Assembly (NCBI GenBank): GCA_026400835.1
Contig: JAPLOA010000048.1
Span: 1-64,000, forward strand
Length of the DNA: 64,000 nt
Reading direction: 5' to 3'
DNA from: Planctomycetales bacterium
Lineage (GTDB): Bacteria > Planctomycetota > Planctomycetia > Planctomycetales > Planctomycetaceae
Shown: positions 309-14,222 of the stretch, one piece after another
How the letters are laid out: each line of letters opens with the position of its first letter
Position numbering within the stretch: position 1 is the stretch's first letter
Position numbers and translations under genes: made by a program
Notes under the pieces: generated by a model
Told to the model about the DNA's origin: nothing
What the model saw: only the letters and a program-made list of their open reading frames with translations
Databases searched by the model: none

Positions 309-1226
309 TTATTCCACCTCAAACTCATTCACCATCTGCAGAGGATCACCATCCTTTACCGAACCGTTGTATTTTTTCGCATCGCCTTTGACCTTGATTG
401 TGATCTGATACCGAGTCGGATCGGGACCGCCGTGTTTTGCGTAGTGATGCACCAGAACACGATATCGCCCCGTCGGTGAACCATCCGCTGGCCAGAAGAC
501 ATTCTCGACCGGCGTATTCGATTCTGCTCCTGCGGCATTCATGTCGACATCCAGTTCGCCACCACAGGACGATTCACGCTGATTAAAAAAGATCTTTTCG
601 CCACCCGGTGTCTCAACATGCAAATCAAGATCATTGCCGTTGTTCCAGGCGAGTGAAATCTGCACATCCCCCGTCTGTGCTCCGGCACGACGCAGACGCT
701 CCTCAAGGTCCGAGAAGCCATTGCCTCCACCTGCCCCGGCAGGCTCCAGATTCGCAGCCGGAGCGGGAAAGTCTGGCATCACAAAGAACTTTTTCCGATT
801 CTCCGTCTGTGCGGTCATGGGAAGTCCGGCGTTCTGTGGCGGAGTCCCGGGGTTTGCAGGTGGAGCGGACGCTGTTCGCTCGGATTCCGCCGCATCAACA
901 GGCTGAGCCACAGAGGCTGCATCACCGGCGGCGTTAACATTAGTCTGGGAACCACTGCCGGTTGCGGCCATGGCGAACTCGCCCTGACCATCCTGTCCCG
1001 AACTTCCATTTCCGCTGCCGCCGCCATCATTTCCGCCGTCGCCGGGCCGTGCAGAAATCATCAGAAGCAACAGCATGATGAGTGTCAGCACAGAAGTCAT
1101 CTGAACGGCAATCGATGCCACCATCGGAACGAGAAACCGCGGACGCGACCTGGAGATCCCCGACGACTGTTTTGTCGCCGAACGATCGGTTGTCAGTGTC
1201 TTCGCGGTGATGTTCGGAGCGTTCAC
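309..1226 (-). CDS. TolR-shaped membrane protein with YfaP/DUF2135-like C-terminal domain
   Basis: This 305-aa protein has a short N-terminal cytoplasmic tail, one membrane segment at about residues 31-58, a Gly/Ser/Ala/Pro-rich linker to about residue 180, and a C-terminal beta domain. The end carries DLHVETPGGEKIFF, GGELDVDMN and RYRVLVHHYAKHG, which resemble the YfaP/DUF2135 beta-sandwich family. One membrane helix followed by a periplasmic domain is the topology of TolR/ExbD, and the neighbouring gene 4 bases upstream encodes a TolQ/ExbB-type channel. I therefore infer a channel partner, although no TolR sequence signature is visible. It is the last gene of the eight-ORF minus-strand run. 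Confidence 0.6.
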   Translation of the reverse strand: MNAPNITAKTLTTDRSATKQSSGISRSRPRFLVPMVASIAVQMTSVLTLIMLLLLMISARPGDGGNDGGGSGNGSSGQDGQGEFAMAATGSGSQTNVNAAGDAASVAQPVDAAESERTASAPPANPGTPPQNAGLPMTAQTENRKKFFVMPDFPAPAANLEPAGAGGGNGFSDLEERLRRAGAQTGDVQISLAWNNGNDLDLHVETPGGEKIFFNQRESSCGGELDVDMNAAGAESNTPVENVFWPADGSPTGRYRVLVHHYAKHGGPDPTRYQITIKVKGDAKKYNGSVKDGDPLQMVNEFEVE

Positions 1227-1230
1227 GTTG

Positions 1231-2115
1231 TTACTCCGCGCCGGCTTCGTAGACCATGATTCGCAGTTTATTCACGACGTTCCGGGTGCAGTATTCGGTA
1301 CACTCGTCAAGAAATTCTTCCTCGCTCTTCTTCAGAAATGTCAGCCACAGTTGAATCAGAAGTGCCGCGACGAGCGCTTCCAGTGTCGTCTCAAAGGCTG
1401 TCGCCAGCCCCGCGGTCACGCCCTGCAGTGATTGTTTGATCGCATCCATTTCGCCAGCGCCCTGCAGTACACCGCCAAACTCAGCGATGGCCTGAGACAA
1501 CCCGAGCACGGTTCCGATAAACCCCAGGACAGGAATCGCCCAAACAAAACTGTTCAGCACCGAGTAGCTGGTGTCCAAAGATGATTCATCGTGTCCACCC
1601 TGGGCGCGCAGGATGTCTTCCACATCACCGACACGCCCGAGATTACGAAGGTTGGAAAGAGCAATCTGAATACGATTAAACAGCACAAAATGGCGAGGAT
1701 CGTCAACGGTGCGATGGATATTGTTCATGACCACGTCAACCGTGGTTGCCGCCAGAATGAAATTGGCTGCTGACGGGACGACTCGATATTCTTCCTGCAA
1801 TGCCTTTCGCTGCAAAATCAGCTTACGCGATTTGATGAGTAGCGCAACGACTGCCCATGCCGACAGGAAAACGATCGCATAAGGGGTTGGTCCACGCTCC
1901 ATAAACATCAGTGAGAATGTCAGTTTCGGAAACGCCATCAGGGGCAGATAAAACAGGACCGTCAGTAATAAAGCGACGATGGACGACCGCAGCATATTGA
2001 CTCGCGTAAACCGCCCGCCGCCACCATAAAGTCGCTGCTCGATATCCATGCGATTCCAGCAAAGTGGCGGTAATGGATCTGACGTACTCATGAGGTTATC
2101 CGAAGGAAATGACAC
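1231..2115 (-). CDS. MotA/TolQ/ExbB proton channel family protein
   Basis: This 294-aa protein has two hydrophobic segments in its first 100 residues, a cytoplasmic middle, and two long C-terminal helices. The region with PVLGFIGTVLGLSQAIAEF followed by QGVTAGLATAFETTLEALVAAL matches the signature of the MotA/TolQ/ExbB family, which conducts ions to power envelope work. The tail after the last helix is charged and cytoplasmic. It sits 4 bases before the TolR-shaped protein and 9 bases after the GYF-like protein, so it is almost certainly cotranscribed with both. The partner and cargo are unknown. Its operon is not a standard tol or exb cluster because no tolA, tolB, pal or tonB is visible. 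Confidence 0.85.
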   Translation of the reverse strand: MSFPSDNLMSTSDPLPPLCWNRMDIEQRLYGGGGRFTRVNMLRSSIVALLLTVLFYLPLMAFPKLTFSLMFMERGPTPYAIVFLSAWAVVALLIKSRKLILQRKALQEEYRVVPSAANFILAATTVDVVMNNIHRTVDDPRHFVLFNRIQIALSNLRNLGRVGDVEDILRAQGGHDESSLDTSYSVLNSFVWAIPVLGFIGTVLGLSQAIAEFGGVLQGAGEMDAIKQSLQGVTAGLATAFETTLEALVAALLIQLWLTFLKKSEEEFLDECTEYCTRNVVNKLRIMVYEAGAE

Positions 2116-2124
2116 GAACCAACA

Positions 2125-2805
2125 TTACGTCAAAGAGCTGACCAGTAAGACGAACGAATACATGACAGACAGGATTACGATCGTGTAACCGCAACTGAGT
2201 CCAATCACAATCAGATTGCGTTCTTTTAGTGATCCCGGCAGCAGTTCATACTTCCGAATGGACAGGTGCCCCAGGATCAACGCGGCCGTGCCCAGCACGC
2301 ATGTGATGGGCAGCAAAATCAGCAGGCCAATGTTCTGCGATGGTGCAAACTTTGACGTTCGCAAAGTCAACACAACTAAAACCGTACACGTTAACAGAAG
2401 TACGAAGCCTGACGGTCCCGCAACCATGGCCCAGACCGTCTGAGGTGACATGGGGCGAGTGGTCATTGATGAGCCAGCAACCTGCAAGCTCAATCCTGAG
2501 CCTGTTCCATGATCCGCTGGTATCTGTCGGCCAGCTGTACGATCGGAAGGCGATTTTTCACCAGCGTGCGGAACGACGTCGTCTGCAGACTCAATGTCGC
2601 TCCGTGCGTCCGATTTTTCGGTCCCCGGCCTTCGCGCAGTGGGGAACAGATCGGGAAATTTGGTGGCCGCAGACCATGATTTCCTATCAGACGAAACTTC
2701 GTGAGCCCTGCTGAATCCTCCGCGCGCGGCGAGTTCATGCAGGTCGCTGCGGCTATACGGCCCGCGAACTGTCAGTCCCAGTCGAATGAAATACGAATCA
2801 CTCAA
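2125..2805 (-). CDS. GYF-like domain protein with three membrane segments
   Basis: This 226-aa protein opens with a GYF_2-like domain (SDSYFIRLGLTVRGPYS, then a helix and the WSAATKFPDLFP end) at about residues 3-55. Such small domains usually bind proline-rich or other peptides in the cytoplasm. A polar linker follows, then three hydrophobic segments at about residues 122-150, 158-184 and 193-222, arranged like DUF4190-type membrane anchors. It lies 29 bases after the 500-aa gene and 9 before the channel gene. I infer an adaptor that ties a cytosolic peptide ligand to the membrane complex, perhaps a proline-rich linker of a sister protein. The function is unproven. Confidence 0.6.
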   Translation of the reverse strand: MSDSYFIRLGLTVRGPYSRSDLHELAARGGFSRAHEVSSDRKSWSAATKFPDLFPTARRPGTEKSDARSDIESADDVVPHAGEKSPSDRTAGRQIPADHGTGSGLSLQVAGSSMTTRPMSPQTVWAMVAGPSGFVLLLTCTVLVVLTLRTSKFAPSQNIGLLILLPITCVLGTAALILGHLSIRKYELLPGSLKERNLIVIGLSCGYTIVILSVMYSFVLLVSSLT

Positions 2806-2834
2806 ATCCCGACCTATGCTCTCATCAAGGGAAG

Positions 2835-4337
2835 CTATGGTTCATAAAAATAGATCGGCAGCCCCTCCACCATAAACGCGGCCGTTTCTGTGACGGGCGG
2901 TATCCCGCGAGTTGTCCCGATCCTGTGAAACTGAGCAGTTTCGGTATTGCCCTTCGTGAACACAAACAACTCACCTTCCGGCAGAACATTGATTGAACGA
3001 CTTGCCGCGCAGGTCCAGCCGGTGGTTTCTCGATGCAGCCAGCCCACCCACCGATAGCGTCCGCCGATCGACAACTTGCCGGCGGCATCTCGGGCCTTGA
3101 TCACGTCCTCGGTGATTTCCCGGGGATCAGGAAACTTCAAGAGTAGTTCCGCAGCATCACGACGACGCATATTGGTCGCCGAATCTTTGGGATCAAACGG
3201 ATTAATGGCCCCCAATTGCAGATCACTCATGCGTTTGAGTGTAATGGCGTGCTTCTCCTGAATTGCCGGGCTTCCAGCAGCCAGTGTTCGAAGAAGACCG
3301 TCCAGAAAAACGTAGCGAAAGATGGGATCCTGCCGCTGCTCTGTTGCGACTCGTTCCAGCAACTGAAGCAGCACACGCTCCCACGTCTGATCGTTGATGG
3401 TCAGCAACGCATCCTTCATTTCCTGCAGCAGGATCCACTCGGGACTTTTCCACTCATCACCAGGTTTGTTCAACTGGACATCGACGAGTGCCAGGTCGAA
3501 GCCCAGGGACGGATTCACGGGCTCACGCAGGCCAATAGCAACAGTCCAATCCGGCAGCGCCTTGAGAGTGACTCGTTTCCCCTGCCCGATCACGGTCGGC
3601 GTCTCACTGGTGTAGTATCTGGTACCATCTTTCGAGCGGACGACGAAGATTCCCTCCATCCTGGATCGGTCCATCATGTCCTGGATATTTGCGAGGATCG
3701 GCTCACCAGCGTCATCGATTCGAGCCCCCACAAACTCCAGATAATTGCGAATCTTCAGCAGTTCGTCTTTCTTCGGGAACGCTGGATTTGATGCCAGAAA
3801 CGCGTCGGCTTCCGTGACATACTTCCGGGCTTCCAGCGGCGACAGAGTCGTGCAATCCATCGCATGAGTTGAAACGAATTGATTCTGCACATCGACCTGA
3901 AGCCACAGATCGGCATCAGATTGCAGCAAACTCTCAAATCGAATTGCCACTGGATCTCTTGGAAGCGCTTTCGCGAAGGCATCCAGGGCTGCTCGAAAAT
4001 TGGGGACGGAGCCCACAGCGTCACTGATCAACGCAAACATCTGCTCGCGACGAGTTTGCTCGGACATACCCTGAATCCGCAGGTCGCAGCGAGCGGACAA
4101 TTCTTTCGGCCCGGCAGCCCCCGAAAGTAGTTCCGGGCTGATATCTTTTCTGGCGGCCAGAGCTTCGAACCGATTCTTGAAGGCCACAAGGCTGGCGATG
4201 TCCATCACGCCGTTGTCCTCGTAGATCCTGAGTTCTTCCGCAGCCAGCTTCAGCAACATCGCGAAATCAGTGTCGATCTGAGCCTGTATTTCAAGCGGTC
4301 TGAAGAGACTCAACGTAAGACTCCGCTGATTCAACAT
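2835..4337 (-). CDS. Uncharacterised 500-aa protein, possibly the frameshifted C-terminal half of its upstream neighbour
   Basis: I do not recognise a family. The protein is mostly helical in its first 250 residues and becomes beta-rich towards the end (GTRYYTSETPTVIGQG, then GGRYRWVGWLHRETTGW and the tail EGLPIYFYEP). It has no signal peptide and no membrane helix. Its first 47 bases overlap the end of the 413-aa gene in a different frame. The neighbour stops about 40 residues after its membrane helix, exactly where this ORF begins, so a joined protein would place this part outside the membrane. Either it is a translationally coupled cytosolic protein from the ATG at 4337, or it is one gene split by a +1 shift. 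Confidence 0.55.
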   Translation of the reverse strand: MLNQRSLTLSLFRPLEIQAQIDTDFAMLLKLAAEELRIYEDNGVMDIASLVAFKNRFEALAARKDISPELLSGAAGPKELSARCDLRIQGMSEQTRREQMFALISDAVGSVPNFRAALDAFAKALPRDPVAIRFESLLQSDADLWLQVDVQNQFVSTHAMDCTTLSPLEARKYVTEADAFLASNPAFPKKDELLKIRNYLEFVGARIDDAGEPILANIQDMMDRSRMEGIFVVRSKDGTRYYTSETPTVIGQGKRVTLKALPDWTVAIGLREPVNPSLGFDLALVDVQLNKPGDEWKSPEWILLQEMKDALLTINDQTWERVLLQLLERVATEQRQDPIFRYVFLDGLLRTLAAGSPAIQEKHAITLKRMSDLQLGAINPFDPKDSATNMRRRDAAELLLKFPDPREITEDVIKARDAAGKLSIGGRYRWVGWLHRETTGWTCAASRSINVLPEGELFVFTKGNTETAQFHRIGTTRGIPPVTETAAFMVEGLPIYFYEP

Positions 4338-5532
4338 CGCCTTGTTCCAGCAGAGAAGTTATCGCTGCCACGTGTTCGGAGACCCGGCTATTGAAGCTTC
4401 TGTGCTGCATGACGAAGAATGCCAGAGCAGCCACGCTGATGACTGAAACCACCGTCATCACAAGTCGACGAGAGTTCCGACGATGAGCCTCTGTGTCCAG
4501 CTCGTCGTAACGAGTTCGCAGACGGTTCAACAGTGGCTCAGGAACTCCGTCGCCATACATTTCGATGGAATGTTCGAGCAGTTCCAGAGCCTCACGTGGC
4601 TGACGCTGATCAAGAGCCTCACGAAGTGACGCAATCTGCTGTTCGTAATGAGCCTGAGCCTGCTCCTCTTTGTCGATGACCAACATCCAGTCAAAGGCGG
4701 CTCTGGTGTCGATCATCAGCGGGTCTTGTTCGGTTAACAGAGCCTTCGTCTGACAGGCATCCCATTGCTCACGAATTCGTCGGCCCGCCGCCACATCCTG
4801 AGCTGACCACACATTCTGCAATTCGGCCGCCAAAGACTGCATCCGCAATTGCGCGAGTCGAGCTTCTTCCTGTTTGAGCACTCGTGAGGCGTTGCGAAGC
4901 AGCGCGGTTTCCGGAGCCCTGAACCAATCCTTGCTGTTGAGTTCTGAATGCAGCAGAGTCAGCCGGCGGAGATCGCGAGTCTCTGTCGCTTCGGCCAGCT
5001 CTTTCCGAATCCCTTTGACTCGCTCCAGTTCAAAGAGTTCCACTTGCTTCGCGGATGCTTCTTTCGCATTCGCCTCTTCCATTTTGTGGATTCGCCGCAT
5101 CACGCCCAGACGAACTCGCAGCGGGCTGTTGGCCAGCGCGTGTCTTCGATTCAGACGATATAAAGGCTCCAGCCTGCGAGCCGGCGCGTAGCAACTGTTG
5201 AGTTGTCGAGTGGCATACTGATCGATGGCAGGCGGAGTCGGGAATCCGAACTGAGTCAGATAGTCGACCCAAACGGGCTGCTCTGGAAAGTCCAGAATTG
5301 AAACAGTCTCCAGAAGGCCCGCTTCGTCCGCTCGCATAATGGCTTCGGACTTCAGGCCACGCTCAACCAGCTCCAGGCAAGTCCTGAGCAGCCCATTGAC
5401 CTGCTGAATCGTCGTCGTGTATCGCTGAGCGAGGCGTTTCAGTTCCGATGCCGCGGGATCACCACGCAGCTCCAGCATGTCGCGGATGTCAGCAATGATT
5501 TCCTGAACTTCGTCTTTGCGAATTGAGGCCAT
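4291..5532 (-). CDS. Helical single-pass membrane protein, unrecognised family
   Basis: This 413-aa protein is rich in charged helices from residue 1 to about 350, with coiled-coil character around 150-190 and 285-320. One membrane helix follows at about 356-374 (TVVSVISVAALAFFVMQH) and only about 39 residues lie beyond it. Its ATG shares one base with the TGA of the upstream gene (TGATG at 5530-5534), a classic coupling arrangement. Most of the mass would be cytoplasmic, facing the GTPase and GAP1-like proteins. The abrupt end after the helix, overlapping the next ORF, suggests a frameshift or an unusual overlap. No enzymatic motif was seen. Confidence 0.6.
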   Translation of the reverse strand: MASIRKDEVQEIIADIRDMLELRGDPAASELKRLAQRYTTTIQQVNGLLRTCLELVERGLKSEAIMRADEAGLLETVSILDFPEQPVWVDYLTQFGFPTPPAIDQYATRQLNSCYAPARRLEPLYRLNRRHALANSPLRVRLGVMRRIHKMEEANAKEASAKQVELFELERVKGIRKELAEATETRDLRRLTLLHSELNSKDWFRAPETALLRNASRVLKQEEARLAQLRMQSLAAELQNVWSAQDVAAGRRIREQWDACQTKALLTEQDPLMIDTRAAFDWMLVIDKEEQAQAHYEQQIASLREALDQRQPREALELLEHSIEMYGDGVPEPLLNRLRTRYDELDTEAHRRNSRRLVMTVVSVISVAALAFFVMQHRSFNSRVSEHVAAITSLLEQGDVESAESYVESLQTA

Positions 5533-7175
5533 CAGCGATTCTCCTCGACTGCAGCAGGCTCGGTGACTGCAGCAGGCTCGGGAACTGCTGCAGGCTCGGG
5601 AACTGCTGCAGGCCGGTTGACAGAAGCAGGCTCGGTGACTGTTGCTGCGATCACAATATCTCGTCCGTCCCCGGCAAATGGACGGTACAAGCGATATTGA
5701 ATCCGGCCTTGATTTCCGATGTCTTCACAGAGCGATTTTACTTTCTCTACGGTGATAGCTGCCACATTCAGCTCTTCCTGTGCTGTCTGCAGTTCCGTTT
5801 CTGCGTCCTCTTTGTCAGTGATTTGAGCGTCGACTTGCTGGAGAGCAGCTCGCTGAGCGTTGCCCGCTCCATTGGAAATCTGTTGCACGAGGCCCGCCCG
5901 CCTGTCGTTCAGAGCTGTCAGAATCTGCTGAACGCTGTCGAGGTCCTTTTCGACCTTCGAAGCCGATGATTTCAAACTGTCCGATGTCTTCTTCAGTTGA
6001 TCTTCAGTCAACTTTTCTTCTTCGTAGTGGACTTCTGTCTTTTTTCTTCGTGTTGATACGACAGGAGCGTTGAAGAGATACTCACCGCGCAGAGCGTAGC
6101 GTCCTTCTTTCCTGTCCAGCGAGAGCTTCAGAGTTATCAAATCGTTGTTCGATTCATCGTCCGGGAATGTAACCGTAATGGTTTCGTTAAATGTGAGTTT
6201 CTCCCCGCTGACCTTGTGCTCCGGCCAGTTCTCAAGCGTCAAATCCAGCTCCAGAATTTCGAACGGTGGCAGCCGGATGCCCGAAGGAACAAATTCATCC
6301 ATCAGCTGTTCAGACTTCGCAAATCGCACCTTCGCCGCGCCGGATCGAGCAACAGACCACAGATCACAGATTTCAGAATCCGGGCCGACAGAGATCTTCA
6401 GACGGCAGAACGGCAGTTTGCCTTTATCCATATTTCTGAACCAACGAAAACTGAGTTGTTGCTCCTTCAAAATGAACTCACCAATCTCCTGGTTACGGGC
6501 GAGCCCGCTTGTGGATTCCTGGGAGACCTTCCAGAGGAACGATTTTGCATCCACTGGAAACGGTTTCAGAGTCAACGTCATCTGCTCGGGAACAGTGAAC
6601 TCGCCGCCGATCAGTTGCAGTGTGACTGTTGCGGGATCCTGCGCAAAGATTTTGCAGAGATCGATTTCGTCGGACAACCCTTCACCGGCAAGCGGAAGTT
6701 TTCGGCTCTTCTGTCGGACATCATCAAGAGCCCGCACATTCGTGACCGGAGGTGACGTTGAAGAAGAAGTTGTAGACCCCGTCGCCGCATCAAGTGGCGG
6801 TGCGGGGGAACTGTTTGCGGTCATTTCGGCCGCATGGCCAGCATCCGGAGTCGTGGATGCTGTGCTTGCATTGCTCGCAGCCGCTGAGTTCTCTGTCGAA
6901 TTCTCTGCAGTCGGTTCTGTTGAAGTGATCGGATTGCTCGCGTTACTGGAGTTGTCCGGAGATGTCGAAGCACTGGATGCATCGGATGCATCAGTTGAAG
7001 TCTCGTTGGACGCGGTCGGAAAACTTCCCGGCGATGATGAAAGTGAAATCGCTGCCGTGACCGCCATCACCAGCCCCGCGCAGAAAAGCTGCACCAGAAT
7101 TCCCACGCTCACGGGCGTGAAAAACTGCCTGCCTTCAGACGGAAAGCTTTCGATTTGTGAGTTTGGATTGGTCAT
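5532..7175 (-). CDS. Single-pass membrane protein sharing its extracytoplasmic module with the GAP1-like protein
   Basis: The ORF is open from 7223. I prefer the ATG at 7175 because it gives a short MTNPNSQIES head before the membrane helix (residues 22-44). A long Ser/Thr/Ala/Asn linker follows, then a beta-rich region, a coiled coil (about residues 380-490) and a last beta strand pair. Several landmarks line up with residues 492-868 of the protein at 7614-10220: VRQKSRKLPL against IRDKGRKLEL, LCKIF against LAKIH, LQLIGG against KRIIGG, LSFRWFR against LSFSWDR, and a similar coiled coil and end. The two are probably paralogues that pair through this module. The C-terminus is a short PEPAAV repeat. 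Confidence 0.6.
   Translation of the reverse strand: MTNPNSQIESFPSEGRQFFTPVSVGILVQLFCAGLVMAVTAAISLSSSPGSFPTASNETSTDASDASSASTSPDNSSNASNPITSTEPTAENSTENSAAASNASTASTTPDAGHAAEMTANSSPAPPLDAATGSTTSSSTSPPVTNVRALDDVRQKSRKLPLAGEGLSDEIDLCKIFAQDPATVTLQLIGGEFTVPEQMTLTLKPFPVDAKSFLWKVSQESTSGLARNQEIGEFILKEQQLSFRWFRNMDKGKLPFCRLKISVGPDSEICDLWSVARSGAAKVRFAKSEQLMDEFVPSGIRLPPFEILELDLTLENWPEHKVSGEKLTFNETITVTFPDDESNNDLITLKLSLDRKEGRYALRGEYLFNAPVVSTRRKKTEVHYEEEKLTEDQLKKTSDSLKSSASKVEKDLDSVQQILTALNDRRAGLVQQISNGAGNAQRAALQQVDAQITDKEDAETELQTAQEELNVAAITVEKVKSLCEDIGNQGRIQYRLYRPFAGDGRDIVIAATVTEPASVNRPAAVPEPAAVPEPAAVTEPAAVEENR
5549..5638. repeat. 18-bp in-frame tandem repeat encoding PEPAAV units
   Basis: About five imperfect copies of an 18-bp unit of the form CTGCAGCAGGCTCGGGAA lie at the 3' end of the preceding minus-strand gene. 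They encode alanine/valine/proline/glutamate hexads (for example VPEPAA, VTEPAA). The unit length is a multiple of three, so copy number can vary without breaking the frame. The nearby GYF-like domain is a possible reader of such proline-rich tails, which is inference. Confidence 0.7.
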
Positions 7176-7332
7176 TGGAACAACTAGTTCTATGAAAATC
7201 GCCCTTGTTTGAACCGAAGTCAAAGGCGCGGCATATTTCCTGACATTTCAAATTTTTCAGGACCGGAAGACCGACAAATCCATGGCCGATGGCGTGACGG
7301 CGTGTTGATTCAACCTTGTCTTGGTCGTGTTC

Positions 7333-7393
7333 GTTTAACGGCGAGCCGTAGGCGTGGGTGAAATGCAGCAACGCCTTCGCCTTGCCGTTAAAC
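7333..7393. repeat. Family A REP-like palindrome, copy 1, inside a 0.4-kb operon gap
   Basis: Left arm GTTTAACGGCGAGCCGTAGG and right arm CGCCTTGCCGTTAAAC form an imperfect inverted repeat, recurring at 20594 and 57954. The gap between the GAP1-like gene (stop at 7614) and the next gene (start at 7175) also holds a second palindromic stretch at about 7408-7500, built on CCGGTGAGCCACCGG and CCGGTAGCTCACGC. No ORF is supported in 7176-7613. The gap may hold an extra promoter or transcript-processing hairpins for the downstream half of the operon. Confidence 0.75.
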
Positions 7394-7613
7394 GACTGGA
7401 TCAACACGCCGGTGAGCCACCGGTTAGCAAAAGTAAAGGGCCTTGTACTTATTACTTCCTTAATCCGGTAGCTCACGCCCCCGGCTGACGATGTGCCGGG
7501 CTTCCAGCACTCACCAATAGCGCGACGTCAAAAGGCGTTTCCCGAAATATCCTCCCCCCTGCGCCGCATGGACCAACAACTTAACAAACACCTACGAGGC
7601 TCTATCTGAGAAT

Positions 7614-10220
7614 TCATTCCTTCTGAGTCACATCAGGGCCATCCGTCACCAACAGTTCGATTCCTCCTGGTTCCGCGTCCGGGACCTTAAGTCTTAACGA
7701 ACATTTGAGTTGACCGTGTTCTGCAATATCCGCCATCAGCTTTTGCAGGTCGGCAGAATGTGTTTTGACTTCTTTGAGCAGATTACCGTTCTCGTTGACA
7801 ACGGTCCGAAACGCATTGACAGCGGCGTCGACGCTCTTCTGTTTCTCAACATTGCGGGTTGATCTTCCTGACTCAACGGCGATCTCCTGCTCCCTCAATT
7901 CTTCACGCATCTGATTCACTCTATTCTCGTACGCTTTTATATCTTCGTCCACCTTGTCGAAAAGACCGGGTTTCCATTCGAAGCTTCCCAGCGAGACATC
8001 ACCGCTTTGCTTGTCAATGACCGGAATATCGACAACGGCTTTGATCCTGACCTGAACATCCTGCTCCGTCTCGTCAAAATAAACGGTCATGGTCGCTGTA
8101 CGAGCATACTTGCCTGTTGTGGGCGGCCTCACAAGAAAGCTTAATGACTGACCGACCGCTCGAAAGTTTGTCCCTGGAGGAATGACTGTTTCGGGGAGAT
8201 TAACATAGTCACAGTGCAGCTCCAGAGCGGCAGTGTCGGTGATGAGCGAGCGGCTTACCAAACGCACTGAACGCTCAGCCCTGGAAAGATCAAAATGAAT
8301 CGGGCTTATATGTTCAACTTCCCTTAGAACGCATTTTTCGGTCTCTGGTTTCTGATCCGGATCACCAGCTTGAATTTCCAGAAGGCAGTTAATCATCTCA
8401 TGGCTTTTGTTCGACCTATCCCAGCTAAAAGACAATTCGAATTTCTGATTCAGATGAAACGTCCCGACGATATCCTTCTTTCCGTCAAGTCCACCACCGG
8501 CCGTGGGCTGTCTAATTACCTCCCACCTGCGAGATGGCTGGTTAGCTGGCGGTAGAGGAACGATGGCATAGTCGTATCCGGATTTCAGCACCGACTGACC
8601 TCCGATGATCCGCTTGAGTGAAACATGGTCGAGCGAATTCACATGAATCTTTGCCAGTCGAATCGGGCCATCGTTACTGGCCTGAAGTCCGGACGACGGC
8701 AATCGCAACTCCAGTTTTCTTCCTTTGTCTCGTATTTCCTGTAACGGTGACAACTGAGGGCTTTTCGGCGAAGAAATTTCGGCAGACGGAGAAACTGATA
8801 CGGAATTTCTTTCAGGATCCGGCGTTACCATCTCCGCGGGCGTTTGTTCCTTCGGAGTGACCTGAACAACGGCGTTCTCTGCTCGCCGTCGCAACTCTTC
8901 CGCCGCACGTTCTTCTTCTGCTTCGCGCCGTCGAGCTTCTCGCTGTTCTTTGTCCAGACGACGTCGCTCTGCCTTCTGTTTGGCAGACGAAATCACTTGA
9001 GCAGCTTTATCAACCGGCTTCGGCTGCTGCATCGCTGAAAAAATGGCCAGCACCACCGAAATTCCCAGCACACCGATCAGCAACAGACTGCTCGGGCGCA
9101 GCAGCAGTGGAGTAGGCTTCTTTTGCGACGAAGCCCCTGCTTTGCGAGTGCCCGTTTTTCCAGTTGGCAAGTTCCACGCTGGTGGAGACTTGGCAGAAAC
9201 GGCATTGTCCTGTCCCGAGTAAGCTTCAACGTCTGCCTTGGGAACGGCATAAATATCCGCATGGAGAGTGGCCTCTGCATCACGTTCAGAGGTCATCGGA
9301 CCAAACGGAGTTCGTTCAAGTTCTCGCTTCCCGCGGCGAGCAATCAGAACAGCCTCCGCTTCCTGATTCCACGGACGGCCTCCAGTCTGCGCGAAGACCG
9401 TCAGCTCATTTTTAGGAGGAGGCACCTTCTTCTCCAGAATCGCGGGCAAATCAATCGTTCTCGATCGTGGATCGAGTCGTGCTTTTTTCGCGAGATCTGT
9501 GCCATCCAGAACGAACTGCCACTGACAAGAGATACTAACGGGCAGGTTACCGGTAAAGAATGTGCTGTAAGAAACGTCCCAACGGGACTCCGGCGGCAGC
9601 AGGGATAACGCTTCGTTCACAAGACGCAATGTCCAGTGTTCTGAACGAGTTCCCACATCACGCGGCAAAATAATCTGCAGCGGCGTTTGGCTGTCGGCTG
9701 CATACGACGCCAGAATTGCGGCCCAGCCAGCATCTCCGGTGGCCTCTTTCCACGCTTCACAAACTCCCGTTCTGGCCTGAGCCGCCATCGGAAGTGTGAG
9801 CTGTCGATCGTCTGGTAAAACGGACGGTTCGCTGTCGCTGGACCACGCCGTGACCCAGGGAATCTGCAAAGACTCCGACGCTGGCCCTTCTGATAACTCC
9901 AGCGCAAGTGCAGCACTGTCAGTGGTCAGCAGATGAGCCAGTTTGTTCGATCGATTCGTATGATCCAGCGGTGCGTTACTGATTCGGGACAGGATGTGAA
10001 AGCGTTGCCCGCCCAGCCGTGCCACATAATGGGCATAGCTGACCGGGTTCCAGCTCGCCTCCGAGCCGTACGCATCAAAGGCATGAGCGTAGCCGGTCAG
10101 TCGTTCCAGCAATTGCGCGAGATTTCCCGGCATGCCGCGAGTACTACGCACGGTACAGAATCCGGTGCTTCCGGACCGCAATCCTCGCCGCGCGGAAGTG
10201 AATACAATCTCCTGCATCAT
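7614..10220 (-). CDS. GAP1-like (GTPase-associated protein) membrane-anchored protein
   Basis: This 868-aa protein starts QEIVFTSARRGLRSGSTGF with CTVRSTRGMP after it. That matches my memory of the GTPase-associated protein 1 N-terminal domain (GAP1-N2 type), named from conflict-system comparative genomics. The N-terminal part (1-145) and a middle part (150-290) are cytoplasmic. A membrane helix lies at about 377-396, a highly charged Arg/Glu helix at 405-447, and a beta-rich plus coiled-coil module at 492-868 outside the membrane. The start ATG overlaps the stop of the GTPase gene by four bases (ATGA). The pairing fits the name, since these proteins occur next to a TRAFAC-type GTPase. No catalytic motif is visible. 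Confidence 0.65.
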   Translation of the reverse strand: MMQEIVFTSARRGLRSGSTGFCTVRSTRGMPGNLAQLLERLTGYAHAFDAYGSEASWNPVSYAHYVARLGGQRFHILSRISNAPLDHTNRSNKLAHLLTTDSAALALELSEGPASESLQIPWVTAWSSDSEPSVLPDDRQLTLPMAAQARTGVCEAWKEATGDAGWAAILASYAADSQTPLQIILPRDVGTRSEHWTLRLVNEALSLLPPESRWDVSYSTFFTGNLPVSISCQWQFVLDGTDLAKKARLDPRSRTIDLPAILEKKVPPPKNELTVFAQTGGRPWNQEAEAVLIARRGKRELERTPFGPMTSERDAEATLHADIYAVPKADVEAYSGQDNAVSAKSPPAWNLPTGKTGTRKAGASSQKKPTPLLLRPSSLLLIGVLGISVVLAIFSAMQQPKPVDKAAQVISSAKQKAERRRLDKEQREARRREAEEERAAEELRRRAENAVVQVTPKEQTPAEMVTPDPERNSVSVSPSAEISSPKSPQLSPLQEIRDKGRKLELRLPSSGLQASNDGPIRLAKIHVNSLDHVSLKRIIGGQSVLKSGYDYAIVPLPPANQPSRRWEVIRQPTAGGGLDGKKDIVGTFHLNQKFELSFSWDRSNKSHEMINCLLEIQAGDPDQKPETEKCVLREVEHISPIHFDLSRAERSVRLVSRSLITDTAALELHCDYVNLPETVIPPGTNFRAVGQSLSFLVRPPTTGKYARTATMTVYFDETEQDVQVRIKAVVDIPVIDKQSGDVSLGSFEWKPGLFDKVDEDIKAYENRVNQMREELREQEIAVESGRSTRNVEKQKSVDAAVNAFRTVVNENGNLLKEVKTHSADLQKLMADIAEHGQLKCSLRLKVPDAEPGGIELLVTDGPDVTQKE

Positions 10221-11554
10221 GAGACGGGCTCCCGGATGGGGGCTGGGGGCTTCGCGGCGTTCTCAGCGGGAATAAACGCATCATCGCCCGATCGCAGGCC
10301 CGCATGATGCAAAGCGTAAAGCACCGGAAGTTCAACCCAGCGAGGAAAAATCTGGCTGGGATCAAACCGCAGATCGACTCGACCATTCGCATCGGCCCCG
10401 GCCACGATCGGACTACGCCCGGTCGCCGTTACGGGGATAAAGATCACCTCTTTAGCAAAGCCACGGGCGGCCGTCACAATGGACGCACCGTATTCCATCA
10501 GCAGCTCTTCAACATTCTTTGAAACTTCCCGTAGTACTTCCAGTTGAAGCGTCGCTTCACCAGTGGACGACACCTGAATGGCTTCATCAAGCCGTTTTGG
10601 AGACTTCTTCAGCAACGGCCGCCATGCATCAAACTTGTGGACGATCACGATCAGGGGGCGATCGAATTTATCAGTGGCCGACATTCCGGTCAGTTGTCGC
10701 ACCCTTGACGCCGCTTCCGAAAGCACGTCAGCCTGCGGATACGAATTGATCACGGTTTCCAGTTGAGGATCCAGGCTGGCATCATTGCAGGATCGAGACG
10801 CTCGCCGAAACGCGGACTCCTGCGTTGGATCATAAATGAACAGCAGAGCCTCCGACCTGGCCATGTGGTCAATTACCGGAGTCTGGGAAGTAACTGCACC
10901 CGGCAGAAAGTGTTCGCCCGCATTATCGTACAGACAGATCATGCGAGAGACCTGGCGGCGTTGCGCATACAGCGGATGTGATTCATCGGGCTGGACGGAA
11001 TACAAATAGGGACGCGACAACAGCAGGTCCTGACCACCCACGTGAGATTCAATGTACCATTTGCCAGTGCGGTCGGTTTTTTCCAGCTTGACGAGTTTCT
11101 CGTGGTCTTCGTAATCAAACAACGTTTTGACATATTCTGTCATCAGTTGATTGGCCCGCGGTGCTGCGTTTTCGAATCGGAGGCGGAATTGCTTGCTGAG
11201 AATCGCTCCCACAGAATGAATCATCGTGGCCAGATAGAACGACTTTCCGGACGACGGGGCTCCCAGAATCGACAGAAACAAAGGCTCCATTTCCAACAGG
11301 CCGCGATTAACCACCGCATGGCAGCGAGGACAAGCCAGTTCATGGCACGGCTCATTTTTCTCGTCGAGTGCTCGTCCGTCGACGGTGAACAGCGTTGGCA
11401 GGAATCTGCGATACTCCGCATCGCCCGCACGCGAATCGCCCAGCAGGCTGCTGTGAGTCGCTACCCAGAGAATGTCCTCCGGCGGGAACTTGAACCAGCA
11501 GGTGGGGCAAGTGACCAGCGGCAGCAACGAAATAGACCGGTCGGCGGATGACAT
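10217..11554 (-). CDS. Zinc-ribbon P-loop GTPase of the TRAFAC/double-GTPase type
   Basis: This 445-aa protein has an N-terminal split zinc ribbon (CPTC near residue 16 and CPRC near residue 76) followed by a GTPase domain. The P-loop is GAPSSGKS, the Walker B/G3 element is DNAGEHF, and the G4-like specificity loop is HKFD in place of the usual NKxD. There is no signal peptide or membrane helix, so it is cytosolic. It is the first gene of the minus-strand operon and overlaps the GAP1-like gene by four bases. I believe it belongs to the DO-GTPase2 group described with GAP1 in predicted conflict systems, from memory and not searched. It is the likely nucleotide switch of this membrane machine. 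Confidence 0.7.
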   Translation of the reverse strand: MSSADRSISLLPLVTCPTCWFKFPPEDILWVATHSSLLGDSRAGDAEYRRFLPTLFTVDGRALDEKNEPCHELACPRCHAVVNRGLLEMEPLFLSILGAPSSGKSFYLATMIHSVGAILSKQFRLRFENAAPRANQLMTEYVKTLFDYEDHEKLVKLEKTDRTGKWYIESHVGGQDLLLSRPYLYSVQPDESHPLYAQRRQVSRMICLYDNAGEHFLPGAVTSQTPVIDHMARSEALLFIYDPTQESAFRRASRSCNDASLDPQLETVINSYPQADVLSEAASRVRQLTGMSATDKFDRPLIVIVHKFDAWRPLLKKSPKRLDEAIQVSSTGEATLQLEVLREVSKNVEELLMEYGASIVTAARGFAKEVIFIPVTATGRSPIVAGADANGRVDLRFDPSQIFPRWVELPVLYALHHAGLRSGDDAFIPAENAAKPPAPIREPVS

Positions 11555-11985: not shown

Positions 11986-13632
11986 TTACGGAGTGTCATG
12001 ATGTGGGACAATCATTGCTCCTTTCTTTCCCGCCACAAATAAGCCGATGATTTTTCCATCCTGCAGCGAAATCACCGGGGCTCCGTTCCACGACGAAAGA
12101 TCTTCGCCTTCCATATTGACCATCCAGTCTGTTCCATCAAGCTTGAGCTGGTTCAGGCTGATGCTCTGAATCACAGTCGAGGCATCGTCGTCAGTTTTTA
12201 CACTGCGGCACAGGCAACATTCTTCGGGTTCCTTCGGTGTTCGAAAACTGGCGTAGTTCACCGTTGGCAGTTCCGTGGTTTTGTCGGCAAACGGAAACAT
12301 CACGGAGCCGGATTGCTTGTTTGTGTCATTCGTTTCACCGTTGCTGAGTGGCAAAGCCGGTGGCACCATCACGATTGTCTGGCTGACTGTGCTTTGTGGC
12401 GAACTGATAACGTATTCCAGTCCGCCTTTTTCGGAAGCATCGGTCGATTCTGCCATCGCTTCGGGCAATGCGTCTGTCGCGGTCAGGATGTAAGTCTGAT
12501 CGTCTCGCTTAATCAGCACTCCGTTGACGGTGAATTTCTGAGTTCGTGAAATTCCGAGCAGGCTGGTTCGACGAGATCCCTGGATGATCAGTGTCGGAGG
12601 CAGATCAAAATCGATCAACGGCAGCGAAGACGCGGTGCTGAGCCATGCGGCTTCTGGTTTATCATGCAACTGAAACATTTGCCCGGTCGTGACCGGCGTC
12701 TTTTCTTTGCCGACTGCGAGCGTGGCAAATGAAACGCCCCCTCGAACAATCGTGCTCAGCGAATCCGCATTCAGACGAACACCGCTCAGCCCCACGTCGA
12801 TCCCAAGACCACTCGTGACCCAGAATTTCGACGACGTACGCAACAGACGCATATACTCAGAATTAATCCGCGCGTGGATGTCGACAAACCTCGCATCCGG
12901 GGACAGATTGATGGAAAGAATCTGTCCGACATCAACTCCGCGCCATGTCACCGGAGCACCGACTGTGACGCCATGCTTTGAGTCACTGCGGAGAACAACA
13001 TCAATTCCTTCGCCACTACTCTCATCCGGCGGTGCCGCGCCGAGCCCTTCAAAGCGACTCTGCTGCGGTGCATCGGGATCGCCGGGACTCACGCCGATGT
13101 ATTTTGCTCCCACAGCGGTGTCCAGTCCGCTGACTCCAGCCAGACTCAGCTGAGGCCGCACGATCCAGAACCTCGCTCCTTCACGAGCCAACCCTGCTGC
13201 GCCGGGAGTAAGAGTTACGGTCGCGGTGATCTGAGACAGATCGTCACTCAATGCCACACTCTCGACGATCCCCGCTTCGATTCCTCGATGACGAACAGCA
13301 TCACCGGCCTTTAAACCATGTCCATCCGGAAAACGAATTGTGATCGACGGACCCACGGACGGAATCGACGTCCATGTCAGCCAGAAAGCCAACAGGAAGC
13401 ACGCAACGGTCACCCACCACAACTTTGAACGCAGGAACAATGCCGACGTCACCGCGCGGACTTCGCGAATATCAGCCACTGGAAACGAACTATTCGCCTC
13501 ATGAGATATCTGCGGAGACGGTGGCTGCTGATTGTGGTTCGAAGTTTGTGCGTCCACGATATTCCTCGGTGCACTCTTCTCTGAAGCAGCAGAATTTGAG
13601 GGAGATGACTCAGAAGCAGCATGAGGTGTCAT
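11986..13632 (-). CDS. PqiB-like MCE protein with a degenerate trypsin-like tail
   Basis: This 548-aa protein has a cytoplasmic head, one membrane helix at about 72-90 (WWVTVACFLLAFWLTW) and two MCE/MlaD domains. The first contains GLKAGDAVRHRGIEAGIV and the second GVTVGAPVTWRGVDVGQI. MCE proteins such as PqiB carry lipids across the periplasm. Ordinary PqiB has three MCE domains. Here the third is replaced by a segment resembling a chymotrypsin-fold protease: VLIKRDDQTYILTATDAL where a His would be expected, and SSWNGAPVISLQDGKIIGLF where the GNSGGP serine should be. Both catalytic positions look lost. Its start overlaps the pqiA-like stop by four bases. Confidence 0.75.
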   Translation of the reverse strand: MTPHAASESSPSNSAASEKSAPRNIVDAQTSNHNQQPPSPQISHEANSSFPVADIREVRAVTSALFLRSKLWWVTVACFLLAFWLTWTSIPSVGPSITIRFPDGHGLKAGDAVRHRGIEAGIVESVALSDDLSQITATVTLTPGAAGLAREGARFWIVRPQLSLAGVSGLDTAVGAKYIGVSPGDPDAPQQSRFEGLGAAPPDESSGEGIDVVLRSDSKHGVTVGAPVTWRGVDVGQILSINLSPDARFVDIHARINSEYMRLLRTSSKFWVTSGLGIDVGLSGVRLNADSLSTIVRGGVSFATLAVGKEKTPVTTGQMFQLHDKPEAAWLSTASSLPLIDFDLPPTLIIQGSRRTSLLGISRTQKFTVNGVLIKRDDQTYILTATDALPEAMAESTDASEKGGLEYVISSPQSTVSQTIVMVPPALPLSNGETNDTNKQSGSVMFPFADKTTELPTVNYASFRTPKEPEECCLCRSVKTDDDASTVIQSISLNQLKLDGTDWMVNMEGEDLSSWNGAPVISLQDGKIIGLFVAGKKGAMIVPHHDTP

Positions 13633-14222
13633 TCACTGTCCTCCCAGATCGCGTGAGGATCAAAGGATATGGAGGCGACCATGCTCATCGCAACACACAG
13701 CACAAAAGCAATAACAGCCGGTCCAAAATTAAACTGCACGATGTTTCCCAGTTTGACCAGCATGACGAGAAACGCCAGCAGCATGACATCCATCATGCTC
13801 CAGCGTCCCATGTGTTCCATCAGTTTGAGAGATGCGGCTTTGTGTCGTCTGTGCAGAAACTCCAGCAGGCTCAGTTCCAGCAACAGGACAATTTTCGTCA
13901 GAGGAAATATGACAGAGAACAGCAGAACAACTCCGCCCACCAGCCAGTTGCCCTGCTTCAGCAAATCAATCGCTCCGCCCAGAATGCTGGATTGTTGCCG
14001 CATCCCCATCTTTTCGATTTCCAGAATGGGACACAGGACCGCCGGCCAGAACAAGACCAGTGCCGCCACTGTTGCCGCAGCAGTTCGGCTGGAGGTCGTC
14101 CGTCGACACCCCGGCGGCGCAAAGGCAGTGCCGCAACGAGTACAAACCGCGCGTTGCTGCACCTGGAGAGTCGGGATTTCGTGGATCAGGCCACAGCAAC
14201 GACAGGAGAGAAGCTTGTTCAT
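13629..14222 (-). CDS. PqiA-like inner-membrane protein, single-domain form
   Basis: This 197-aa protein starts with a zinc-ribbon-like CRCCG and CTRCG pair, typical of PqiA/YebS, and then has four hydrophobic segments (from VAALVLFWPAVLCPILEIE to the end). Family members usually have two such four-helix domains, so this is a half-length version. PqiA anchors the lipid-transporting MCE partner in the inner membrane. The stop overlaps the next gene by ATGA (13629-13632), so the two are translationally coupled. The absence of the second domain is not a truncation artefact, since the stop is clean and coupling is intact. Confidence 0.8.
   Translation of the reverse strand: MNKLLSCRCCGLIHEIPTLQVQQRAVCTRCGTAFAPPGCRRTTSSRTAAATVAALVLFWPAVLCPILEIEKMGMRQQSSILGGAIDLLKQGNWLVGGVVLLFSVIFPLTKIVLLLELSLLEFLHRRHKAASLKLMEHMGRWSMMDVMLLAFLVMLVKLGNIVQFNFGPAVIAFVLCVAMSMVASISFDPHAIWEDSE

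Follow-up and report, generated by a model that had tools for sequence, protein, structure and literature searches.

Organization of the locus

The first 64,000 nucleotides of contig JAPLOA010000048.1 (assembly GCA_026400835.1, from a Planctomycetales bacterium), here called the window, start at base 1 of that contig (C101) and carry, on the minus strand at 309-11554, a tightly packed operon that joins a GTPase and a GAP1 protein to a membrane channel. On balance we favor the view that a conserved trans-envelope motor, GTPase-switched and ion-driven, is encoded here in a damaged copy, a reading built on sequence comparison. A listing of open reading frames (ORFs) recovered all eight minus-strand ORFs, with the coordinates and packing that an earlier sequence-only reading of the region had described. 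Neighbors overlap at three junctions (10217-10220, 5532 and 4291-4337), and the remaining gaps measure 4, 9, 29 and 390 bp. What had been counted as eight genes are seven, one of them broken, since the ORFs of 413 and 500 amino acids (aa) form a single gene of about 982 aa.

At the head of the operon lies a DO-GTPase-like protein of 445 aa (10217-11554) with two CPxC zinc knuckles, a P-loop of the form GxPxxGKS, and DNAGE and KxD motifs; all of these, the CPxC...CPxC arrangement included, are conserved at a level of at least 90% across 31 loci. A scan for promoters and terminators upstream of this gene found none. The next gene (7614-10220) encodes the 868-aa GAP1 protein, in which one membrane helix (residues 379-397) is followed by about 470 aa. 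Both GAP1-N2 (4.2e-19, 69.4 bits against a cut-off of 24) and GAP1-M (2.1e-7, 31.5 bits against 24) score above their Pfam thresholds, which bears out the GAP1 identity first suggested for this protein, its N-terminus included. The 563-aa protein that follows (5532-7223) is, as had also been proposed, a membrane-anchored paralog of the second, periplasmic half of GAP1 (blastp 3e-9; hhalign probability 98.4), and not all relatives have one.

Beyond the scaffold gene, treated below, comes a 226-aa protein (2125-2805) with a GYF-like domain and three hydrophobic segments by hydropathy, whose homolog at locus L189 matches GYF_2 at 3e-20. The C-terminal tails of the GTPases were considered as ligands for this domain, and no common proline motif was seen by eye among the 31 loci.

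The channel and its partners

The 294-aa protein at 1231-2115 belongs to the MotA/TolQ/ExbB superfamily, matching PF01618 in Pfam at 4e-11 (43.2 bits against a cut-off of 22.9), and the original call of a channel stands. Hydropathy gives it four hydrophobic segments; TolQ has three. PADLOC and NCBIfam together returned a weak similarity of the channel to ZorA and TolQ and low-scoring coiled-coil matches, and nothing else. Sequence searches of the PDB gave TolQ at E 0.18 for the channel and, for the partner TolRb, coiled-coil and a few beta proteins among the 60 of 359 matches listed. A second, longer channel paralog (492-aa frame) occurs at G000:C10:159392-160117, far from any scaffold match; paralogs of this class are common in the family.

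The gene at 309-1226 was taken at first for the TolR-type subunit. That identity had to be given up: its membrane helix carries no Asp, and in relatives two Asp-bearing partner genes come after it. These true partners, TolRa (with the motif FxFQDII) and TolRb (with LLLDTICNTFGG), each have one N-terminal membrane helix, and in the window's own genome (G000) they lie on another contig, C41. An Asp opens the helix in 76 of 77 TolRa-type and 70 of 70 TolRb-type proteins; two further partner-like sequences were left unclassified, one with LLLD and the other a short frame lacking the Asp. A structure model of TolRb (mean pLDDT 87.6), compared with solved chains by VIA, placed TolR (5by4) at rank 1, with Z 6.3, 3.1 Å over 84 residues and 23% identity, and ExbD (8pek) at rank 3, with Z 6.0. 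Sequence identity was 17-23% in the TolR and ExbD rows versus 4-14% in rows for unrelated proteins.

A broken scaffold gene and a displaced operon end

Two of the genes first proposed, a 413-aa helical protein and its 500-aa partner, turn out to be halves of one gene split by a deletion. In the same-genus relatives L055, L054 and L052 they form a single frame of 981-982 aa, here called the scaffold. The N-terminal part (4291-5532) shares 95% identity with L055 residues 1-412, and residues 13-500 of the C-terminal ORF (2835-4337) are 93% identical to L055 residues 495-982. On both sides of the break the DNA shows about 89-91% identity to L055, and 251 bp are gone between 4298 and 4297; this length is not a multiple of three, so the gene is split out of frame. 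The missing segment found no match elsewhere in the genome, in a search run without a positive control of its own.

The other end of the operon is displaced. In a relative with 94% DNA identity (L160), 45 bp lie between the counterpart of the 309-1226 gene and the gene after it. Similarity between the window and this relative ends at 296 and resumes at base 312 of contig C41 (=L073), on which TolRa and TolRb occupy 277-1131 and 1128-2039. The insert that parts them (1-295) consists of a repeated element (1-134) and a dispersed repeat of about 120-160 bp (125-285). The former has 11 further matches in the genome; nine of these, on contigs other than C85 and C26, lie at a contig end. It is probably an insertion sequence, with no transposase shown for it. 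Of 56 genome matches, the latter accounts for 44, and the other 12 take in the 1-134 element. The separation may be a real insertion or an effect of assembly at a repeat. With its scaffold gene broken and an insert between the channel and its partners, the window's copy of the operon probably does not function, provided that the assembly is correct.

Some 1.2 kb past TolRb on C41, a gene for a T2SSE ATPase (L073:3253-4701, 1.3e-96) lies on the opposite strand, and a frame homologous to it occupies the same place in L055 (15558-16814).

Conservation and gene neighborhood

Two samples were used to follow the operon through other genomes. The first comprised 392 genomes of the phylum, searched with alignments of the scaffold (A1) and of the channel (A2). 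The scaffold was found in 24 of them and the channel, at E<=1e-30, in 39; among same-genus genomes the channel occurred in 8 of 18. Close channel matches (E<=7.3e-69) came from 20 genomes, and in 18 of these a scaffold match lay within 2.1 kb, the two exceptions being G113 and G159. The other channel matches belong mostly to the paralog class with the longer frame and lie elsewhere in their genomes.

The second sample took the best 80 of at least 492 channel relatives on contigs at large, each count being restricted to loci with enough flank for the gene in question. Most of these loci come from Planctomycetota; others are on contigs labeled Verrucomicrobia, Victivallales and Desulfamplus, and one short contig is labeled Nitrospiraceae. 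TolRa was present at 62 of 66 loci and TolRb at 52 of 54. The scaffold lay upstream at 37 of 43 (41 of 43 when either side is counted), GAP1 at 32 of 37 (35 of 37), the GTPase at 31 of 36 (34 of 36), and the GYF protein was found at 44 of 54. Four loci (L214, L223, L232 and L237) keep the core in a different gene order. All six core genes are found together in the named strains Botrimarina colliarenosi Pla108, Rhodopirellula solitaria CA85, Ca. Laterigemmans baculatus JC640 and Desulfamplus magnetovallimortis. Distance matrices of six proteins from 31 loci were correlated (r 0.69-0.91), and none of 999 permutations reached these values.

The two sets of counts share contigs (L161=L055, L162=L052, L163=L054, L179=L062 and L189=L042) and are therefore not independent. 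The best 80 also include three pairs from the same genome (L203/L209, L202/L225 and L208/L216) and one of near copies (L226/L228), some of the profiles that labeled these loci had been iterated on the same loci, and the labels Kuenenia, Akkermansia and Nitrospiraceae, given to metagenome-assembled genomes, are possibly wrong. The gene set recurs beyond chance, across families and on contigs labeled as other phyla, and the homologs stay together as the sequence-only reading had supposed. A search for the GAP1/GTPase side by family PF20013 was positive in 29 of 59 relatives, many of them with other neighborhoods and without the channel.

Upstream of the operon, on the same strand at 11986-14222, the window carries PqiA and MlaD (PqiB-like) genes recognized by Pfam. 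A homologous 548-aa frame stands ahead of the GTPase in L055, and none stands there in L054 or L052. At one locus (L217:2675-20707) GTPase/GAP1 and the TolRa/TolRb pair each occur twice, in a duplication-like arrangement.

Arm proteins and modular forms

Having lost its place as the TolR subunit, the protein at 309-1226 appears, from its sequence features and those of its neighbors in other loci, to be a one-helix "arm" protein of a variable class. It is bitopic, with a helix at residues 39-57, a linker in which a 40-aa stretch is 35% Gly, and a C-terminal domain. The YfaP-like (DUF2135) label that this domain had received is the genome's sole match to PF09906 and falls below the cut-off (12.7 bits against 22, E 1.3). 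In 42 of 53 cases, genes just downstream of the motor genes encode a single-helix protein that extends 60 aa or more past its helix, versus 66 of 252 for distant genes (p 7e-13). Among such single-helix proteins, a Gly-rich linker occurs in 14 of 42 near the motor and 3 of 66 at a distance (p 1e-4), and a proline-rich or GYF-like cytoplasmic part in 17 of 42 versus 10 of 66 (p 0.003), by text patterns for Gly, proline and GYF that were picked after the sequences had been inspected.

Arm-like one-helix proteins also follow TolRb at L054:17560-19146, L185:12610-14529 and L189:12651-14477. The first two match toroid models of the squalene-cyclase/TED type, that of L185 also GYF_2 weakly, and the third is matched by the SQH profile. 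The type of C-terminal domain seen at 309-1226 recurs in proteins of 705-718 aa (L063:6993-9110 and L064:10316-12472), which stand near a different GAP1-N2 gene with neither scaffold nor channel.

The core itself comes in more than one form. At L044 and L041 a T2SSE ATPase with a fused GYF domain (2.3e-102 and 1e-99) comes after a short GAP1 and a short scaffold, and L047 and L120 encode a long protein resembling this fusion, 79% and 46% identical along its length. These loci represent a sister form in which a GYF-T2SSE ATPase takes the place of the motor. In Desulfamplus magnetovallimortis, FHA and GYF domains, both over their cut-offs, are fused to the GTPase chain.

Relation to known systems

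DO-GTPase/GAP1 systems were predicted computationally as conflict systems (PMC7159879), and planctomycete versions were described in which a GYF protein is fused to trypsin or to a membrane-helix-rich region (Kaur et al. 2020, PMC7159879). As these systems are set out there, the window's operon shares with the GAP1-N2 type a protein that combines GAP1-N2 and GAP1-M with a membrane helix toward its C-terminus, and an adjoining zinc-ribbon GTPase with a Glu after the DxxG motif, its DO-GTPase2 score being below the cut-off. It differs from them in its ion-driven channel, two ExbD-like partners, scaffold of about 1000 aa and variable bitopic arm. Pfam matches of the window's eight ORFs, down to E<=1, included none to the FNIII repeats of GAP1-N2 systems, called rapidly evolving in the same paper, the far end of the operon being on the other contig. 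The association of GTPase, GAP1 and GYF was already published in 2020, and measured against the main text of PMC7159879 the attached motor is the new part: that main text contains none of the terms "tolq", "mota", "exbb" and "proton channel", and a literature search, judged from listings, found no further publication that links GTPase and GAP1 to such a motor.

The closest working analog appears to be the control of the AglRQS motor by MglA in the gliding of Myxococcus xanthus. There, according to the accounts drawn on here, a GTPase and its partner act on a MotA/TolQ-type channel with AglQ and AglS as MotB/TolR-type subunits (PMC9120999, PMC3169522), and MglA drives both gliding, through the effectors AglR and GltJ, and type IV pili (PMC12288465). 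Compared by description, the two share a GTPase with a partner and a channel with two unlike subunits, and much as MglA serves gliding and pili, the GTPase/GAP1 core pairs here with a channel or a T2SSE ATPase. Unlike AglQ and AglS, which match the ExbD family PF02472, TolRa and TolRb are without such a match, so that by this family test the system is not a member of the MglA-AglRQS group. For GAP1 and the scaffold, no counterpart is named in the descriptions of the gliding machinery used here (PMC9120999, PMC3169522, PMC12288465). The GltG protein of Myxococcus is described as having an FHA domain. Zinc and GYF modules are reportedly present in GltJ.

Zorya may serve as a second analog, without being a match. 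From what PMC11890865 relates, ZorAB resembles the present system as a patchily occurring membrane system with a MotA/ExbB-type channel and an ExbD-like partner. The window's channel differs in being short (294 aa, without the long tail), in reaching ZorA only at 1e-4 and in having two unlike partners, and neither the eight ORFs nor TolRa, TolRb or the scaffold matched PADLOC models of ZorB, ZorC, ZorD or ZorE at E<=1. With the general ExbBD, TolQR and MotAB complexes it shares the channel family PF01618 and a partner whose membrane helix begins with Asp, and TolR and ExbD hold structural ranks 1 and 3 for the TolRb model; it departs from them in having two different partners, each with a long coiled-coil stalk and no PF02472 match, and in its four-segment channel.

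A proposed GTP-switched motor and its alternatives

Adjacency, motifs, co-conservation and fusions can be observed directly, and control of the motor by GTP is proposed because the catalytic motifs are conserved, the genes adjoin and domains are fused. We infer the assembly, the ion flow, the force and the direction of control as follows. Channel subunits would ring the membrane helices of TolRa and TolRb, and ion flow through the channel would move their long periplasmic stalks. Force could then reach the variable one-helix arm as well as GAP1 and the scaffold of about 980 aa, through the large parts of these two that lie outside the cytoplasm. On the cytoplasmic side the zinc-ribbon GTPase would cycle on membrane-bound GAP1, the GYF protein may read the proline-rich tails of arm proteins, and the GTP state would assemble, start or stop the motor. 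Of the GTP-switched membrane machine envisaged in the sequence-only reading, the coupling of GTPase and GAP1 to a channel has survived, both in the GAP1-N2 match and in the company that the homologs keep; the eight genes and the TolR identity of the 309-1226 protein have fallen away, and the idea of a defense device found no support.

Several observations weigh against a GTP-switched motor. Action of the GTPase on the motor rests on adjacency. The GTPase keeps its zinc and catalytic motifs in 31 loci, and its earlier description stands to that extent, while its match to DO-GTPase2 (3.3e-4, 20.8 bits) stays under the Pfam cut-off of 27. The GYF-like protein, with its three hydrophobic segments and clear L189 homolog, likewise scores under the GYF_2 cut-off in the window (9.6e-4, 19.3 bits against 25.8). 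No match to ExbD PF02472 at E<=1 was found among the two TolRa (the second being L046:4729-5574) and four TolRb proteins scanned. The VIA score of 6.3 for TolRb lies within the range of unrelated folds, an ISCro4 chain reaching Z 6.0, and Foldseek alone did not rank TolR or ExbD for this model. No fold relative could be named for the scaffold of about 982 aa (best Foldseek E 0.013; VIA Z at most 8.1, to helical repeats). Six of the 24 scaffold genomes (G045, G094, G141, G201, G358 and G394) have no close channel match, L188 and L215 have a channel with no core within reach, and the correlated distances could be explained by shared descent alone.

That a GTPase/GAP1 system happens to adjoin a separate stator operon could be read from one-sided loci, L188 and L215 with the channel only and L040 and L044 with the GTPase side only. 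Such independence is highly improbable, the neighborhood counts already contradicting it: the two sides are co-located at between 34 of 36 and 41 of 43 loci in distant lineages and in 18 of 20 sampled genomes, and even the permuted loci keep both together. A role in conflict with phages, in which GAP1 and the GTPase would sense an invader and drive or open a Zorya-like channel, leading to depolarization or effector recruitment, draws on the published conflict prediction (in the portion of PMC7159879 drawn on here), on the patchy spread of scaffold (24 of 392) and channel (8 of 18), on upstream neighbors that differ between same-genus genomes, and on the ZorA similarity of the channel, which at 1e-4 is the best that PADLOC offers. 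We nonetheless consider it unlikely, for the motor genes stay constant and are not swapped, Pfam recognized no effector-like domain in those operon proteins that were scanned, and PADLOC families are not in excess in the flanks. In the last comparison, 117 of the 175 flank proteins were set beside 39 controls taken from the window (14.3-64 kb) and L071, a small, one-genome control set. At E<=1e-8, mad3 matched 2 of 117 flank and 3 of 39 control proteins and mad8 2 of 117 and 2 of 39; further PADLOC flank families, among the 25 of 46 listed, had one or two proteins each, one flank protein matched many PD-T4-6 models, and the Pfam families were of mixed kinds, each of the 25 of 106 listed occurring in 3 of 117 at most. 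The idea of a defense island was dropped on this result.

It is somewhat less probable again that the operon encodes a TonB/Tol-like machine for transport or envelope maintenance, in which the GTPase and GAP1 only position or assemble the complex without switching the motor. By structure comparison the TolRb model is most like TolR and ExbD, and the arm proteins, like TonB and TolA, combine a bitopic build with a flexible linker; no outer-membrane receptor or Pal-like gene was recognized, however, in the operon proteins scanned. Between a positioning and a switching role of the GTPase, sequence alone does not decide.

Implications

A GTP-switched motor of this build would give DO-GTPase/GAP1 systems a concrete output that can be tested, namely ion flow and force. 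More tentatively, the locus may represent a separate kind of envelope machine, in which one GTPase/GAP1/scaffold core plugs into either a channel with two ExbD-type subunits or a GYF-linked T2SSE ATPase of the secretion or pilus type, with a swappable extracytoplasmic arm. Evolution could then have arrived independently at a counterpart of the MglA principle, by which one G-protein drives a stator-type motor and a pilus-type ATPase alike. If confirmed, the motor would add a GTP-controlled member with two unlike ExbD-type subunits to the ion-driven motors, and the role of GAP1 systems would become directly testable.

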